Below are positions 54,170 to 59,334 of a stretch of DNA of 64,000 bases, one piece after another (position 1 is the stretch's first letter; every line of letters begins with the position of its first letter). Both the position numbers and the translations under genes were made by a program. The notes beneath the pieces are model-generated. The model saw nothing but the letters and a program-made list of their open reading frames with translations. It was not told where the DNA came from and did not search any database. The stretch comes from Tautonia marina. GTDB lineage: Bacteria > Planctomycetota > Planctomycetia > Isosphaerales > Isosphaeraceae. The stretch spans positions 62,001 to 126,000 of the forward strand of contig NZ_WEZF01000015.1 of the NCBI RefSeq assembly GCF_009177065.1. Reading direction: 5' to 3'.

Positions 54170-54413
54170 TGGTTGGCTCGCATAACTTCATGCAGTCATT
54201 GGAAATCGGAGGTTTTCGCGAAAAAACTTCCAGGCGATTTTGGGGGTGATTCCGTAGGATAGAAGACAGTTCCTCTCGGCGAGATGGGGTTGAGTCGAGG
54301 CAGCTTTCCGAGAGACGAACCCCTTTTTGTTGGTGTGGAATGGATTCTGCATCATGGACTCATCCGAATCATGAGTGGAACGGACCAGACGCGTGAGTGC
54401 AGTACCCCGAACC

Positions 54414-55778
54414 ATGCCGGAGCGATCCACCAGTTTCCGAGTGGTGCTTGAGATCGTCGAGGGGCCCCGAGCGGGCCGGTCGTTCGTGGTCGAGCGCGCC
54501 GAACCGTTCGTGGTGGGCCGTTCACTTCTGGTTGACGGTTCGGTCCCTGAAGATAGTTCGCTCTCGCGCGATCACTTCGAGTTGCGAGTGACCAGCGGAG
54601 GCGACCTGACGCTCCGCGACCTGCGCAGCACCAACGGCACGTTTGTCAACGATCGGCCGGTGGAGCGGTCGCGCCTGGTTCATGGCGACCGGATCATGGC
54701 CGGAGAAACGGTCTTTCGGGTCCAGATTGAGGCCTCGGGCGGCATGCCGGGCCTGCTTCGGCCCGACGAGGTGGGCACGGCCGAGCACGATCGGCCTCCG
54801 GTCTCGTTCGCCCCGATCGTCTGCGGCGGTTGTGGGATTTCGGCCCCTCAGGGCACCCTTGTTGCTCAGGATGAACAAGAGGGACGCGGGCCGGAGTCGG
54901 TCTACTGGCTTTGCGACAACTGCCGGGCCGAGATGGCGATGACCCCCCAGCCCGTGCCGCACTACAAGACCCTCCGCGAGCTGGGACGGGGGGCGATGGG
55001 GGTCGTCTATCTCGCCCAGCACTCCCGGACCGGGCGCAAGGTCGCCCTGAAGCTGATCGTGCCCGAGTCGGCCGCTGCCCGATCGGCCATCGACCGCTTC
55101 CTCCGCGAAATGACGGTCATCAGCAAGCTGAAGCATCCGAACATCGTCGAGTGGCTCGAACAGGGAACTTCCGGCGGTCGCTTCTGGTTCGCCATGGAGT
55201 ATGTTGACGGCAGCAATCTTGAGGCCGTTGCCCGAGCCGCCCAGGGCCAGTACCCGATCGACCAGGGCTGCCGGATGGCCGCTCAGATTCTCAAGGGACT
55301 CGATCACGCCCATCGCCAAGGCTTCGTCCATCGGGACATCAAGCCGGAAAACATTCTCATCGGTCGCACACCAAGCGGCTTGCTCTCGGTCAAGATTTCC
55401 GATTTCGGCCTGGCCAAAAGTTACCGGAGCATCGGCCTGTCGGGCCTGACCTTCTCCGGAGAAATGCGTGGGACGATTCCCTTCATGCCCCCCGAGCAGA
55501 TGCTCGACTTCAAGACCGTCAAGCCGTCGGGCGACATCTACGCCACGACCGCGACGCTCTATTTCCTGCTCACCGGCCAGTTTATCCATGATCATGTGGG
55601 CGAAGGGATCGACGTGGTGCAACTGGTCCTGGAACAGGCCCCCATCCCCATCCGCGAGCGACGCCCCGAGATTCCTCCTCAGCTCGCCGCCGTGATCGAC
55701 CGCGGCCTGTCCCGAGACCCCGCCGACCGCTTCCCCAGCGCCTCGGCCCTTCGCCAGGCGCTTCGGCCCTTCTGCTGA
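54414..55778 (+). CDS. FHA domain - zinc motif - serine/threonine protein kinase
   Basis: The 454-residue protein begins with an FHA phosphothreonine-binding domain (about residues 8-105, with SRDHFELR and STNGTFVND). A four-Cys zinc motif follows (C137, C140, C167, C170), then a complete kinase (about 184-452). Kinase landmarks are GRGAMG (191-196), the ATP-anchoring K213, HRDIKPEN (306-313) and DFG (330-332). There is no transmembrane helix, so it should act in the cytoplasm. FHA domains bind phosphorylated partners, suggesting self- or cascade regulation. The frame is open upstream to a GTG at 54375, and another GTG lies at 54393, so the start is uncertain. Confidence 0.9.
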   Translation: MPERSTSFRVVLEIVEGPRAGRSFVVERAEPFVVGRSLLVDGSVPEDSSLSRDHFELRVTSGGDLTLRDLRSTNGTFVNDRPVERSRLVHGDRIMAGETVFRVQIEASGGMPGLLRPDEVGTAEHDRPPVSFAPIVCGGCGISAPQGTLVAQDEQEGRGPESVYWLCDNCRAEMAMTPQPVPHYKTLRELGRGAMGVVYLAQHSRTGRKVALKLIVPESAAARSAIDRFLREMTVISKLKHPNIVEWLEQGTSGGRFWFAMEYVDGSNLEAVARAAQGQYPIDQGCRMAAQILKGLDHAHRQGFVHRDIKPENILIGRTPSGLLSVKISDFGLAKSYRSIGLSGLTFSGEMRGTIPFMPPEQMLDFKTVKPSGDIYATTATLYFLLTGQFIHDHVGEGIDVVQLVLEQAPIPIRERRPEIPPQLAAVIDRGLSRDPADRFPSASALRQALRPFC

Positions 55779-55818: not shown

Positions 55819-56430
55819 TTAGCGGGTTCCCGCCGACGCCTCGTCAAGGACAAGTTGGATGTCGGCTACGACCGATTCGGGATCGAGGAACTGAAGATTG
55901 TAAATTTCTCGTTGCCGACCGTTGGGATCGACCAGAAAGATCCGCGACGGATGGTCGAGCGTGCCGCTCGGGCCGATCCGAGCCCACATATCCCAGGCGG
56001 CGATCACCTCGGCCACTGGCTTCGGGTCGCCCGTCAGGAAATGCCATCCTGAAGGATCGGCGCCGAAAATCTCGGCGTATCGGCTGAGAATCTCCGGCCG
56101 ATCCGTTTTCGGATCGAGCGAGATGGACACCAGGGCGACACGGTCGCCCCAGAGCCCGCGGCGCTTCAGTTCCTCCTGCACGCGGTACATCGTATGCGTG
56201 GTGGCCGGGCACGACCCGTTGCAGGTCGTGTAGACAAAGCTCACCAGGGCGGCCTTGCCCTGCGATTGCAGGTCGGCCAGGCGAAACGGTTGCTCGGTGC
56301 GCGCATCGACCAGCACCGTCTCCGGCGCCGGACCGATGTCCGCCAGCCGGGAATCGTCTTCGATCGCCGCCAAGGCGCCGAACCAGGCGACCCAGGAGCC
56401 CATCGCGAGCCAGATGCCATGAAGAATCAT
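55819..56430 (-). CDS. SCO1/SenC family copper chaperone-like protein
   Basis: The 203-residue thioredoxin-fold protein has an N-terminal hydrophobic anchor or leader (residues 3-22), the copper-binding CNGSC (C70, C74) and the third ligand H160 in LDHPSRIFLVD. SCO proteins deliver or reduce copper for periplasmic or membrane cuproenzymes. It starts 73 bp after the SBP56-type gene, with GAGGAG 10 bases before the ATG. Its likely client is therefore that protein, an inference supported by the same pairing in methanethiol-oxidising bacteria. Confidence 0.9.
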   Translation of the reverse strand: MILHGIWLAMGSWVAWFGALAAIEDDSRLADIGPAPETVLVDARTEQPFRLADLQSQGKAALVSFVYTTCNGSCPATTHTMYRVQEELKRRGLWGDRVALVSISLDPKTDRPEILSRYAEIFGADPSGWHFLTGDPKPVAEVIAAWDMWARIGPSGTLDHPSRIFLVDPNGRQREIYNLQFLDPESVVADIQLVLDEASAGTR

Positions 56431-56503
56431 TTGTGGTTGCTCCTCGTGCGGTCGATGTCGCGCGTGGTGATTGAGTCGGTGTTCGACGTGGGGTGATATG
56501 GGA

Positions 56504-57721
56504 TCAGTTGATCAGCATGTCGTGACCACGGGCCGCGCCCGTCGGGAATTTGGTCAGATCAACATCGAAGAACGGATCGACCTTCATGCCGTCCGGTCCG
56601 ATCCGGACGAGCCGGATGCAGAAGTTTTCCGAGCGGTCGAGGGTTGAGAGCAAGGAGTTGGTCACATACATGCGCTTGCCGTCGCCGGTCAGGTGCATCA
56701 TGTTCGGCTGCACGCAGGGAACCACTGTGCTGGTCAGCACGAGGTTTTCGGGATCCGACACGTCCCACTGCTGGATCTCGTCGCCGCCGAAGCATGAGAC
56801 GTAGAGGAAGCGATCGTCGGGGCTCTGCCTCAGGTCGGCGGGTAAAGCGGCCGTGTCGGCCACTTTCTTCGTCTCGTAGGTGCCGTCGCCACGCCCCTTG
56901 AACAGATAGATCGAGTTATCGAGCGCACAGTTCGTGAACCCATAATCATTTTCAGGTTTGAGCGACCAGCGGACCTCCAGCGGAGCAAGCCCGGCCTCCA
57001 TGACCTGAAGCGGTTTCCGCTCCTTGAAGTCCCAGACAATCAACTCGTTGCCGAAGTCGTTCAGGCTCATCTCGGGGAACGGCTTCCCATAATTGCGCAA
57101 CGGCGTGAAGGCGCTCGAAACCATGCGGTTAAACTCGGTTTTGACGGCCACATCGTAGCCGTACGGCGATTCCTCGGGCTGGTCGATTCGGCGGATAAAG
57201 CGGCCGTCGTTGGTGAATTCGGCCATCCCGGCCGGAAGTCCGCCATCGGCCGCGCCGAGGAAGGTCAAGAGCATCCGGCCCGGAAGGGCGTAATAGGTAT
57301 GCGGCCCCGACAGCCCCGTCTGTTCCGTGACGTCCTCCAGGACGGTTTCGATCCGAGGGGCGGCCGGGTCGGTCGCCACGTCGATGATCCAGATCCGGCT
57401 CGAAAAGAGCCCCCCGGCCCAGATGCGCGTCCGGTCGTCGGTGAACCCCCAGTGGTGCGTCTCGTTCCCCTTCGAGCCGAGATCAAGCTGATGGATGATC
57501 GTGCCGTAACTCGGGCTGGCTGGGTTGACATCCACGGTGATGACAAAATCATTGTCCTTTGCATCGGCATCGACGCAGAAGACATACAGGTATGCTTCCG
57601 GCCGATCGAGTCGCGTCACGTAGGGAGACAGGCACGTCTCGGCGCAGGCGACCGAGGCGATCAGCACGATCGCCAGCGTTCGGACCACCTGCACGCAGGG
57701 GAGAGGGAGACGAGATCGCAT
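56504..57721 (-). CDS. mtoX: Selenium-binding protein 56 / methanethiol oxidase homologue
   Basis: The 405-residue secreted protein (leader MRSRLPLPCVQVVRTLAIVL, cleavage near ACAE) belongs to the SBP56 family. It begins its domain with SPYVTRLDRPEAYLYVFCVD and has ETHHWGFTDDRTRIW, GPHTYYALPGRML, YGYDVAVKTEFNRMVSSAF and NMMHLTGDGKRMYVTNSLLS. The bacterial member MtoX is a copper-dependent periplasmic oxidase that converts methanethiol to formaldehyde, sulfide and hydrogen peroxide. Candidate copper ligands are the HH of THHWGF. The export signal and the adjacent SCO gene favour that function over a generic selenium role. AGGAGG precedes the ATG at 57721; a TTG lies 21 bases upstream. Confidence 0.85.
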   Translation of the reverse strand: MRSRLPLPCVQVVRTLAIVLIASVACAETCLSPYVTRLDRPEAYLYVFCVDADAKDNDFVITVDVNPASPSYGTIIHQLDLGSKGNETHHWGFTDDRTRIWAGGLFSSRIWIIDVATDPAAPRIETVLEDVTEQTGLSGPHTYYALPGRMLLTFLGAADGGLPAGMAEFTNDGRFIRRIDQPEESPYGYDVAVKTEFNRMVSSAFTPLRNYGKPFPEMSLNDFGNELIVWDFKERKPLQVMEAGLAPLEVRWSLKPENDYGFTNCALDNSIYLFKGRGDGTYETKKVADTAALPADLRQSPDDRFLYVSCFGGDEIQQWDVSDPENLVLTSTVVPCVQPNMMHLTGDGKRMYVTNSLLSTLDRSENFCIRLVRIGPDGMKVDPFFDVDLTKFPTGAARGHDMLIN

Positions 57722-57778
57722 GAGCGCAATCCTCCTTGGCAAGACCGTGATGAAACGGCCATTGCGGTTCGAGATGGG

Positions 57779-57976
57779 TCAGGATTTCGGGCCGACTTGC
57801 TCGGACGGGACAATGGCGATCGAATCGAGCCATCGGCGGAAGGACTCGGCCTCTCCGCCGCGCAGGATGGTCGCTTTTTCGGTACTGAAAAAGATCTCAA
57901 CGTCAATGCCCGTATCACGAACTTCTGTGACCATCTCCAGATTCAAATAACTTCCGCCGATTTTGACCAGAGTCAT
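57779..57976 (-). CDS. Small conserved-looking protein
   Basis: The 65-residue product (MTLVKIGGSYLNLEMVTEVR, then DVEIFFSTEKATILRGGEAE) has alternating strand-like segments and an ESFRRWLDS helix. It has the style of small planctomycete proteins that begin with GGSYLNL. GGAGAG lies upstream of the ATG. It lies 57 bp before the SBP56-type gene in the same direction and may be the first gene of that unit. No function can be given. Confidence 0.65.
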   Translation of the reverse strand: MTLVKIGGSYLNLEMVTEVRDTGIDVEIFFSTEKATILRGGEAESFRRWLDSIAIVPSEQVGPKS

Positions 57977-58077: not shown

Positions 58078-59334
58078 TCACCCGATCAAAGGGATCGCCC
58101 TGGCCCCGTCGGCGGCCTGGCAAACATGAACCTCGGCGATCGTACCGGTGCGTCGGGCGTAGGCCTCGCGCACCGAGGCGGCGAAGGCGTCGGCCTGGTC
58201 AGACCGAACCAGATTGACCGTGCAACCGGCCCAGCCCGCCCCGCAGAGCTTACCGCCCAGGAATCCGGGCGCAGCCTCGGCCAATTCGATCAACGTGTTC
58301 AAAGCAGGCGAGCTGTTTTCGAAGTCGTCTCGGCTTGATGCGTGCGAGGCCGACATCAGGCGGCCCAACGTCGTCAGATCGCCACGCCGCAGGGCCTCGG
58401 CCCCTTGCCGCACTCGGTCGTTCTCGGTCAAGACGTGCCGCGCGCGACGGTAGCCGACCGGGTCGAGCCGATCACGATAGGCGTTCAAATCCGCAAGGGT
58501 GATGTCCCGAAGCGACGCGACCGGCGGAGGCTCCTGAGGGGGATCGGAGCGTGAGGATGCCGGCGGATGTTCGCGGAAGTACCGGACAATCCGATCACAT
58601 TCCTCCCGGCGCTGGTTGTACATCCCGTCGGCCAGACGTCGTGAGGTCTTCGTGTCGCAAACGACGATCGCAGGCGAGGGATCGCCGAGCGAAAGCCGCT
58701 CGAACTCAAGCGAGAAACAATCGAGCATCAAGGCATGATCGCGCTTGCCCAGCAGGGTGCAAACGAAGTCGAGCAGGCCCGAGGCGACCCCAACGGTCTG
58801 GTTCTCGGCCTCGCGGAGGGTCTGGGCCAGAGCCATCCGAGCCTGGTCGTCGAGCGCGTCGGCGGTCCCCCCCTGCCCCTCGGGAAACACTCCGGCGTCG
58901 AGCAAAAACAGGGCGAACGCTCCCTCCAGGCTTGCCGAACTGGAGAGGCCCGCGCCGAGCGGAACATCGCCGGCAATGGTGGCCTCGAAGGCCGATTGCA
59001 GCGGCCCGATTCGATCGGTGAACGCCTTGACGACCCCTCGCAGGTACCGTCCCCAGGCCCCTGGCGGGTCATTCACCTCCTCATGGAGCGGCAGACCATA
59101 CAAATCATCGAATGCCTCGGAGTAAATCCAGGATTCTTCTCCCCGGGTCGGCCGGCCGGTCACGACGGTCGAGCGGTCGATCGCCGCGGCCAAAACCAGG
59201 CCGTTGTTGTGGTCGGTGTGATTGCCCAGCAGTTCGACGCGTCCCGGAGCCATGCCGAGGTGTGTCGGCTCGGCGCCGAAGCGCTCTCGGAAGGCGGCCC
59301 GAGCACGATCGATCGAAGTAGATGCGGTCATCAT
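58078..59334 (-). CDS. galK: Galactokinase-like GHMP sugar kinase
   Basis: The 418-residue enzyme belongs to the GHMP kinase superfamily and resembles galactokinase, which phosphorylates galactose at O1 with ATP. The ATP-binding loop is GDVPLGAGLSSSASLE, and a late GGKLCGAGWAGCTVNLV matches motif 3. The substrate-side signature reads GRVELLGNHTDHNNGLVL, where classical GalK has GEHTDYN, so Glu and Tyr are replaced by Asn and His. The kinase may therefore use galactose or a related sugar. No galT or galE gene is adjacent. GGAGGA precedes the ATG at 59334. Confidence 0.85.
   Translation of the reverse strand: MMTASTSIDRARAAFRERFGAEPTHLGMAPGRVELLGNHTDHNNGLVLAAAIDRSTVVTGRPTRGEESWIYSEAFDDLYGLPLHEEVNDPPGAWGRYLRGVVKAFTDRIGPLQSAFEATIAGDVPLGAGLSSSASLEGAFALFLLDAGVFPEGQGGTADALDDQARMALAQTLREAENQTVGVASGLLDFVCTLLGKRDHALMLDCFSLEFERLSLGDPSPAIVVCDTKTSRRLADGMYNQRREECDRIVRYFREHPPASSRSDPPQEPPPVASLRDITLADLNAYRDRLDPVGYRRARHVLTENDRVRQGAEALRRGDLTTLGRLMSASHASSRDDFENSSPALNTLIELAEAAPGFLGGKLCGAGWAGCTVNLVRSDQADAFAASVREAYARRTGTIAEVHVCQAADGARAIPLIG

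Follow-up and report, generated by a model that had tools for sequence, protein, structure and literature searches.

The window analysed here is a stretch of 64,000 nucleotides from the genome of Tautonia marina (contig NZ_WEZF01000015.1). Four genes follow one another on its minus strand, in the order galK-like gene, small ORF, SBP56-family gene and SCO gene, and a convergent gene on the plus strand comes next. The SBP56-family gene (56504..57721) encodes a protein of 405 residues that matches PF05694 (3.8e-58; 197.8 bits, gathering cut-off 34). Its listed reading frame reaches up to a TTG at 57742 (56504-57742), and the likely start is the ATG at 57721, located behind a ribosome-binding-like AAGGAGG. 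The protein carries a Sec-like signal and is predicted to be exported. The SCO gene (55819..56430) encodes a SCO1/SenC-type copper chaperone of 203 residues, which matches PF02630 above the gathering cut-off (7.9e-22; 78.1 bits). This chaperone possesses the CxxxC motif (C70-x3-C74) and the distal histidine (H160) of the SCO1/SenC family, is probably exported, and differs from its known relatives in nothing notable. The two genes are separated by 73 bp, confirming the preliminary description, which had placed the SBP56 gene directly before a SCO1/SenC gene. In the T. marina genome (7.07 Mb, 80 contigs), the SBP56 gene is the only one matching PF05694, and the window SCO is among six PF02630 matches. 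The outer neighbours are an upstream gene that we take from its sequence to be galactokinase-like (58078..59334, minus strand), a syntenic neighbour in Isosphaeraceae for which no functional tie is claimed, and, beyond SCO, what is presumably an FHA/kinase gene (54375-55778, plus strand). A promoter and terminator scan gave counts near those of shuffled sequences and nothing usable.

The small ORF (57779..57976, minus strand; 65 residues) lies 57 bp upstream of the SBP56 gene. It is a real gene, since its differences from the nearest relative fall 3/1/23 by codon position over 62 codons, and it has no Pfam match. The ORF adjoins the SBP56 gene in all four genomes of the genus. Distant relatives are present in six further genomes of the family outside the genus, never near an SBP56 gene, and the ORF was not found at the loci of related SBP56 proteins outside the genus. 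The earlier suggestion that it may belong to the same unit is therefore not borne out: the small ORF is conserved within the genus as a neighbour, and we rejected it as a unit member because its adjacency to SBP56 is confined to the genus.

The AF2 model of the SBP56 protein, built from 28 sequences, has a mean pLDDT of 91.1 and a pTM of 0.87. Its best match in the PDB is the Sulfolobus SBP56 protein 2ECE (Foldseek 6.8e-31; Z 49.6, rmsd 2.0 over 370 residues), followed by lactonase-type propellers and nitrous oxide reductase with Z scores of about 29-33. Nitrous oxide reductase (NosZ, L-NosZ) has a seven-bladed propeller of the same kind (fold Z ~30), with a copper axis lined by histidines. 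Unlike in NosZ, Pfam identified no cupredoxin CuA domain in the window protein, which also gives no match at 1e-3 to the L-NosZ model NF052460 (cut-off 700). Among the calibration proteins scanned with that model, only a divergent relative of the window protein (L071) was matched, at 17.8 bits.

The window protein was compared residue by residue with two better-known branches of the SBP56 fold, namely the methanethiol oxidase MtoX (Hyphomicrobium sp. VS; Ruegeria pomeroyi SPOA0269) and the SELENBP1/SBP56 proteins (human SELENBP1, C. elegans SEMO-1, 2ECE). The copper ligands of the Hyphomicrobium VS enzyme are His89, His90, His140 and His412 (PMC5739008), and the R. pomeroyi MTO has His88/89, His141, His424, Trp223, Trp386 and a catalytic Cys28, whose role rests on this one paper (PMC10936201). 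SELENBP1 activity requires H73, H74, H137, H140, D189 and E252 (PMC10362175). The alignment contains 29 rows of the window's group (the window protein and its closest relatives), six MtoX, 15 SBP56 and three rows of a third type; L092 was dropped. The VS ligand positions were mapped through H88/H89/H141/H424 of the R. pomeroyi MTO.

The four putative copper histidines of MtoX are all retained in the window protein as H89, H90, H141 and H400 and are invariant in its group (29/29); the His89-His90 codons are at 57452..57457 (minus strand). Their acidic partners D190 and E249 are present as well, each in 28 of 29 group rows. The preliminary description had called for an alignment of the copper ligands, and no ligand is lost. 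Moreover, Cys30 (codon 57632..57634, minus strand) aligns with the catalytic Cys28 of the R. pomeroyi MTO within the TCxSPY motif common to MtoX, and is found in 28/29 group rows, 5/6 MtoX and 0/15 SBP56. The HH motif, the blade 2 histidine, the Asp, the Glu and the C-terminal histidine are also common to the SELENBP1/SBP56 proteins. The second histidine of the SELENBP1 HxxH motif (H140), in contrast, is replaced by Y144, giving HxxY, and the same position is Tyr in five of six MtoX rows and Phe in the sixth. The cysteine motifs of SBP56 proteins (e.g. GGDC) are absent from the window protein, which ends at HDMLIN. The third type, represented by L025, L026 and L027 from the window's family, keeps the HH motif and the C-terminal histidine, with Asn for the blade 2 histidine in two of the three and Gly for the Asp.

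Identity between the window protein and MtoX is about 32-38%, and the window protein is shorter, lacking the MtoX inserts. Predicted export is a further feature in common with MtoX. Three positions fixed across 25 MtoX loci differ in the window's group: W302 is Tyr or Phe (Y282 in the window protein; Trp in 0/29 rows), S368 is His, and W386 is Leu or Met (L361 in the window protein; Trp in 1/29 rows). The His, H343 (codon 56693..56695, minus strand), is invariant in the group (29/29), whereas all six MtoX rows have Ser. With the seven inner strands brought into register from sequence, H89, H141, D190, E249, D296, N340 and H400 would form the axial ring of the propeller. H343 would then lie three residues past the ring position of blade 6, just as H140 of SELENBP1 lies three residues past H137 in blade 2.

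As a yardstick for MtoX we used the curated NCBI equivalog model NF052453, with a cut-off of 650 bits. The window protein scores 309.7 bits, far from the MtoX of R. pomeroyi (759.0), Skermanella (759.7) and Microvirga (681.9) and close to four other members of its group (270-314 bits); two SBP56 proteins score 159 and 132 bits and one third-type protein (L025) 45.5. The surveys gave separate tiers: MtoX at 622-748 bits, the window's group at 252-322 and SBP56 at 141-164. Among 95 genomes of the Rokubacteria/Methylomirabilota phylum there were 62 matches, of which 32 were at 622-748 and 15 at 252-322, and the interval from 322 to 622 bits contained no full-length match; partial matches from G478 (284 bits over 154 positions, a third of the model) and three pieces of G489 were left uncounted. 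Because the scores form such tiers, the window's type is a discrete group and not a smear. In 392 genomes drawn from Planctomycetota only ten matches were found, comprising two true MtoX from one genus at 735, the window protein itself at 310, five at 141-164 and two at ~20. Within the window's family (45 genomes, types assigned by identity and trees), 15 genomes have the window's type at 69-100% identity, eight have SBP56 and three the third type. Altogether the group is found in Isosphaeraceae/Gemmatales, Rokubacteria, Methylomirabilota and one 'Deltaproteobacteria' MAG.

The tree comprises 45 rows, including 25 of the window's group, five MtoX and 15 SBP56; L092, the long-branched third type (L025-L027) and the near-copies L003, L057, L068, L075 and L060 were left out. 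SBP56 is split from the window's group plus MtoX at 100/100, and the MtoX rows form one group at 100/100. The window protein therefore joins MtoX and does not cluster with SELENBP1-type SBP56, the outcome that would have spoken against the original proposal; the SBP56 rows here come from bacteria and archaea only. The window's group is not a single clade, as its 25 rows need two changes, with L071 branching before MtoX and the rest. Since L071 branches first, MtoX may be nested in the group, and 'sister group' is a term of convenience. The assignment to the MtoX type in the preliminary description thus holds for the copper histidines, the SCO pairing and the side of the tree, but not for the curated score, which at 310 bits is far below the cut-off.

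The pairing with SCO was counted with profiles of trimmed domains in flanks of up to 6 kb. SCO lies directly downstream on the same strand in 16 of the 30 group loci holding a whole SBP gene (in one of these, 745 bp away), in three of the four loci of a divergent subgroup, and just downstream of the gene in all 25 MtoX loci. At the SBP56 and third-type control loci it was found in 0/22, in flanks of ~1.5-4 kb that are mostly shorter than those of the group. The contrast between 16/30 and 0/22 argues that the pairing is not due to chance, and it supports the earlier statement that the neighbourhood is that of MtoX. SCO is missing beside 14 of the 30 group loci, including that of the congener Tautonia sociabilis. 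In T. sociabilis (L041:7143-8303), a reading frame with an HMA (heavy-metal) domain is located ~1 kb downstream of the SBP56 gene.

The unit contains no MauG gene. A profile made from four MauG-like proteins found none at 33 group loci with flanks of up to 6 kb; the SBP gene itself is truncated at three of these loci, and several of them are short. The preliminary description had also asked whether a MauG-like gene exists elsewhere in the genome, and T. marina has six PF03150 matches, three of them strong with a CCP_MauG domain; none lies on the window's contig. The window protein lacks both proposed TTQ tryptophans, Leu standing at the position of Trp223 (Trp in 0/29 group rows) as it does at that of Trp386, so that a MauG would have no obvious maturation target. 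We also examined 25 MtoX loci, drawn from 20 of the 32 upper-tier genomes together with L095, L096, L029, L030 and L031; three of them have less than 4 kb downstream. Trp386 is present in all 25, Trp223 in three and MauG in two. Both MauG-bearing loci have Trp223 (Fisher p 0.01, uncorrected for kinship). MauG is thus not required for membership in MtoX, as only two of the 25 loci have it. Given that Trp223 occurs in three loci and SCO in all 25, these counts suggest that the TTQ proposal for MtoX holds for no more than a subset of the enzymes, and that the core common to all of them is copper.

Taken together, the SBP56 protein is fairly probably a periplasmic seven-bladed β-propeller copper enzyme akin to MtoX, free of TTQ, that acts as an oxidase of methanethiol or another small thiol. 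After export by the Sec route, with predicted cleavage before E-T-C, SCO would deliver copper to the axial cluster formed by H89/H90/H141/H400 with D190/E249 nearby, a role suggested by the gene pairing; SCO may load or reduce the copper site. By homology with Cys28 of the R. pomeroyi MTO, for which this is reported (PMC10936201), the thiol may bind Cys30 as a mixed disulfide. Copper-activated O2 would break the C-S bond, releasing an aldehyde and sulfane sulfur or H2S, and turnover would proceed without the TTQ cofactor. Small-thiol oxidation is the most likely function, and methanethiol is the leading candidate substrate, since the ligands, the cysteine and the partner are the same as in MtoX. 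The aldehyde would be formaldehyde in that case, which could enter the Fae/H4MPT route. This would place methylated-sulfur metabolism in a planctomycete, as first proposed. Fae is encoded in the T. marina genome and is present in 42 of 45 family genomes; it was rejected as a supporting co-occurrence, being non-discriminating. A search for methionine gamma-lyase recognised no such methanethiol-producing enzyme in the genome: the model gives 297 bits against a cut-off of 550 and also matches all 14 controls.

The protein could instead be a divergent but functionally identical MtoX, its sequence differences being without effect on function, which we regard as rather unlikely. The copper histidines, Cys30 and the SCO pairing are common to both, and MtoX loci mostly lack MauG and Trp223 too. 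Moreover, only one of the 95 genomes (G441) has both types, with 32 having MtoX and 15 the window's type, where ~5 would be expected (P(<=1)=0.012, uncorrected for kinship); this is how alternatives would be distributed. However, the sharp score gap speaks against identity, and so do H343 and the loss of W302/W386, which are fixed or almost fixed throughout the group.

Changes at or beside the predicted axial ring, namely H343 and D401 (Asp in 29/29 group rows; Ile, Met or His in MtoX), would also suit a copper oxidase on the same scaffold that acts on another sulfur compound (longer thiols, persulfides or sulfide) and is coupled to the respiratory chain. Two gene neighbourhoods are in line with this idea. 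In a Gemmatales MAG (L052:5938-12892), genes for COX2, COX1, a COX3-like protein, cytochrome c and a Rieske protein come after the SBP56 gene in the same orientation. In the divergent member L071 (L071:315-5786), the SBP56 gene lies between a gene for a PhsA-like molybdopterin enzyme and DsrO/PsrB-like FeS and NrfD genes, apparently a thiosulfate/polysulfide-reductase-like operon, which we also count as sulfur context for thiol oxidation. However, each of these contexts was seen only once in the loci examined, L052 being the only one with a cytochrome oxidase, and the catalytic cysteine and copper ligands are the same as in MtoX, so we consider this alternative improbable. A non-enzymatic periplasmic copper or selenium binding or storage protein, as the family name, the SCO neighbour and a loss of TTQ tryptophans fitting general copper handling might suggest, is highly improbable, since storage alone would not require Asp190, Glu249 and Cys30, all of which are kept and the counterparts of which are required for activity in relatives (PMC10362175, PMC10936201).

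The preferred reading, a TTQ-free thiol-oxidising copper enzyme, makes the window's type a variant group of a known kind of enzyme. More tentatively, it is a real possibility that the group represents a third, unnamed SBP56 copper-oxidase branch with a rebuilt copper site, in which the second blade 2 histidine of SELENBP1 is missing (as it also is in MtoX), an invariant histidine (H343) has arisen in the same register of blade 6, and neither TTQ tryptophan is left. Such a branch would be loaded by SCO, would possibly act on a substrate other than methanethiol, and would be common to planctomycetes of the Isosphaeraceae/Gemmatales and to Rokubacteria/Methylomirabilota. A literature search found nothing on the group in titles and the beginnings of abstracts; it mostly did not extend to subscription papers and is weak evidence of novelty. 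SBP56 proteins are loosely named in databases, and mtoX serves as the marker when methanethiol turnover is surveyed. A group having the copper ligands, catalytic cysteine and SCO partner of MtoX, yet scoring far below the curated cut-off, would be missed or misnamed. With it, thiol oxidation would become a possibility in planctomycetes and Rokubacteria as well. In addition, plasmid-borne SBP56-type genes of Phaeobacter, Paracoccus and Haladaptatus (L091, L092, L094) are each followed by a 2Fe-2S ferredoxin gene, another recurrent pairing.
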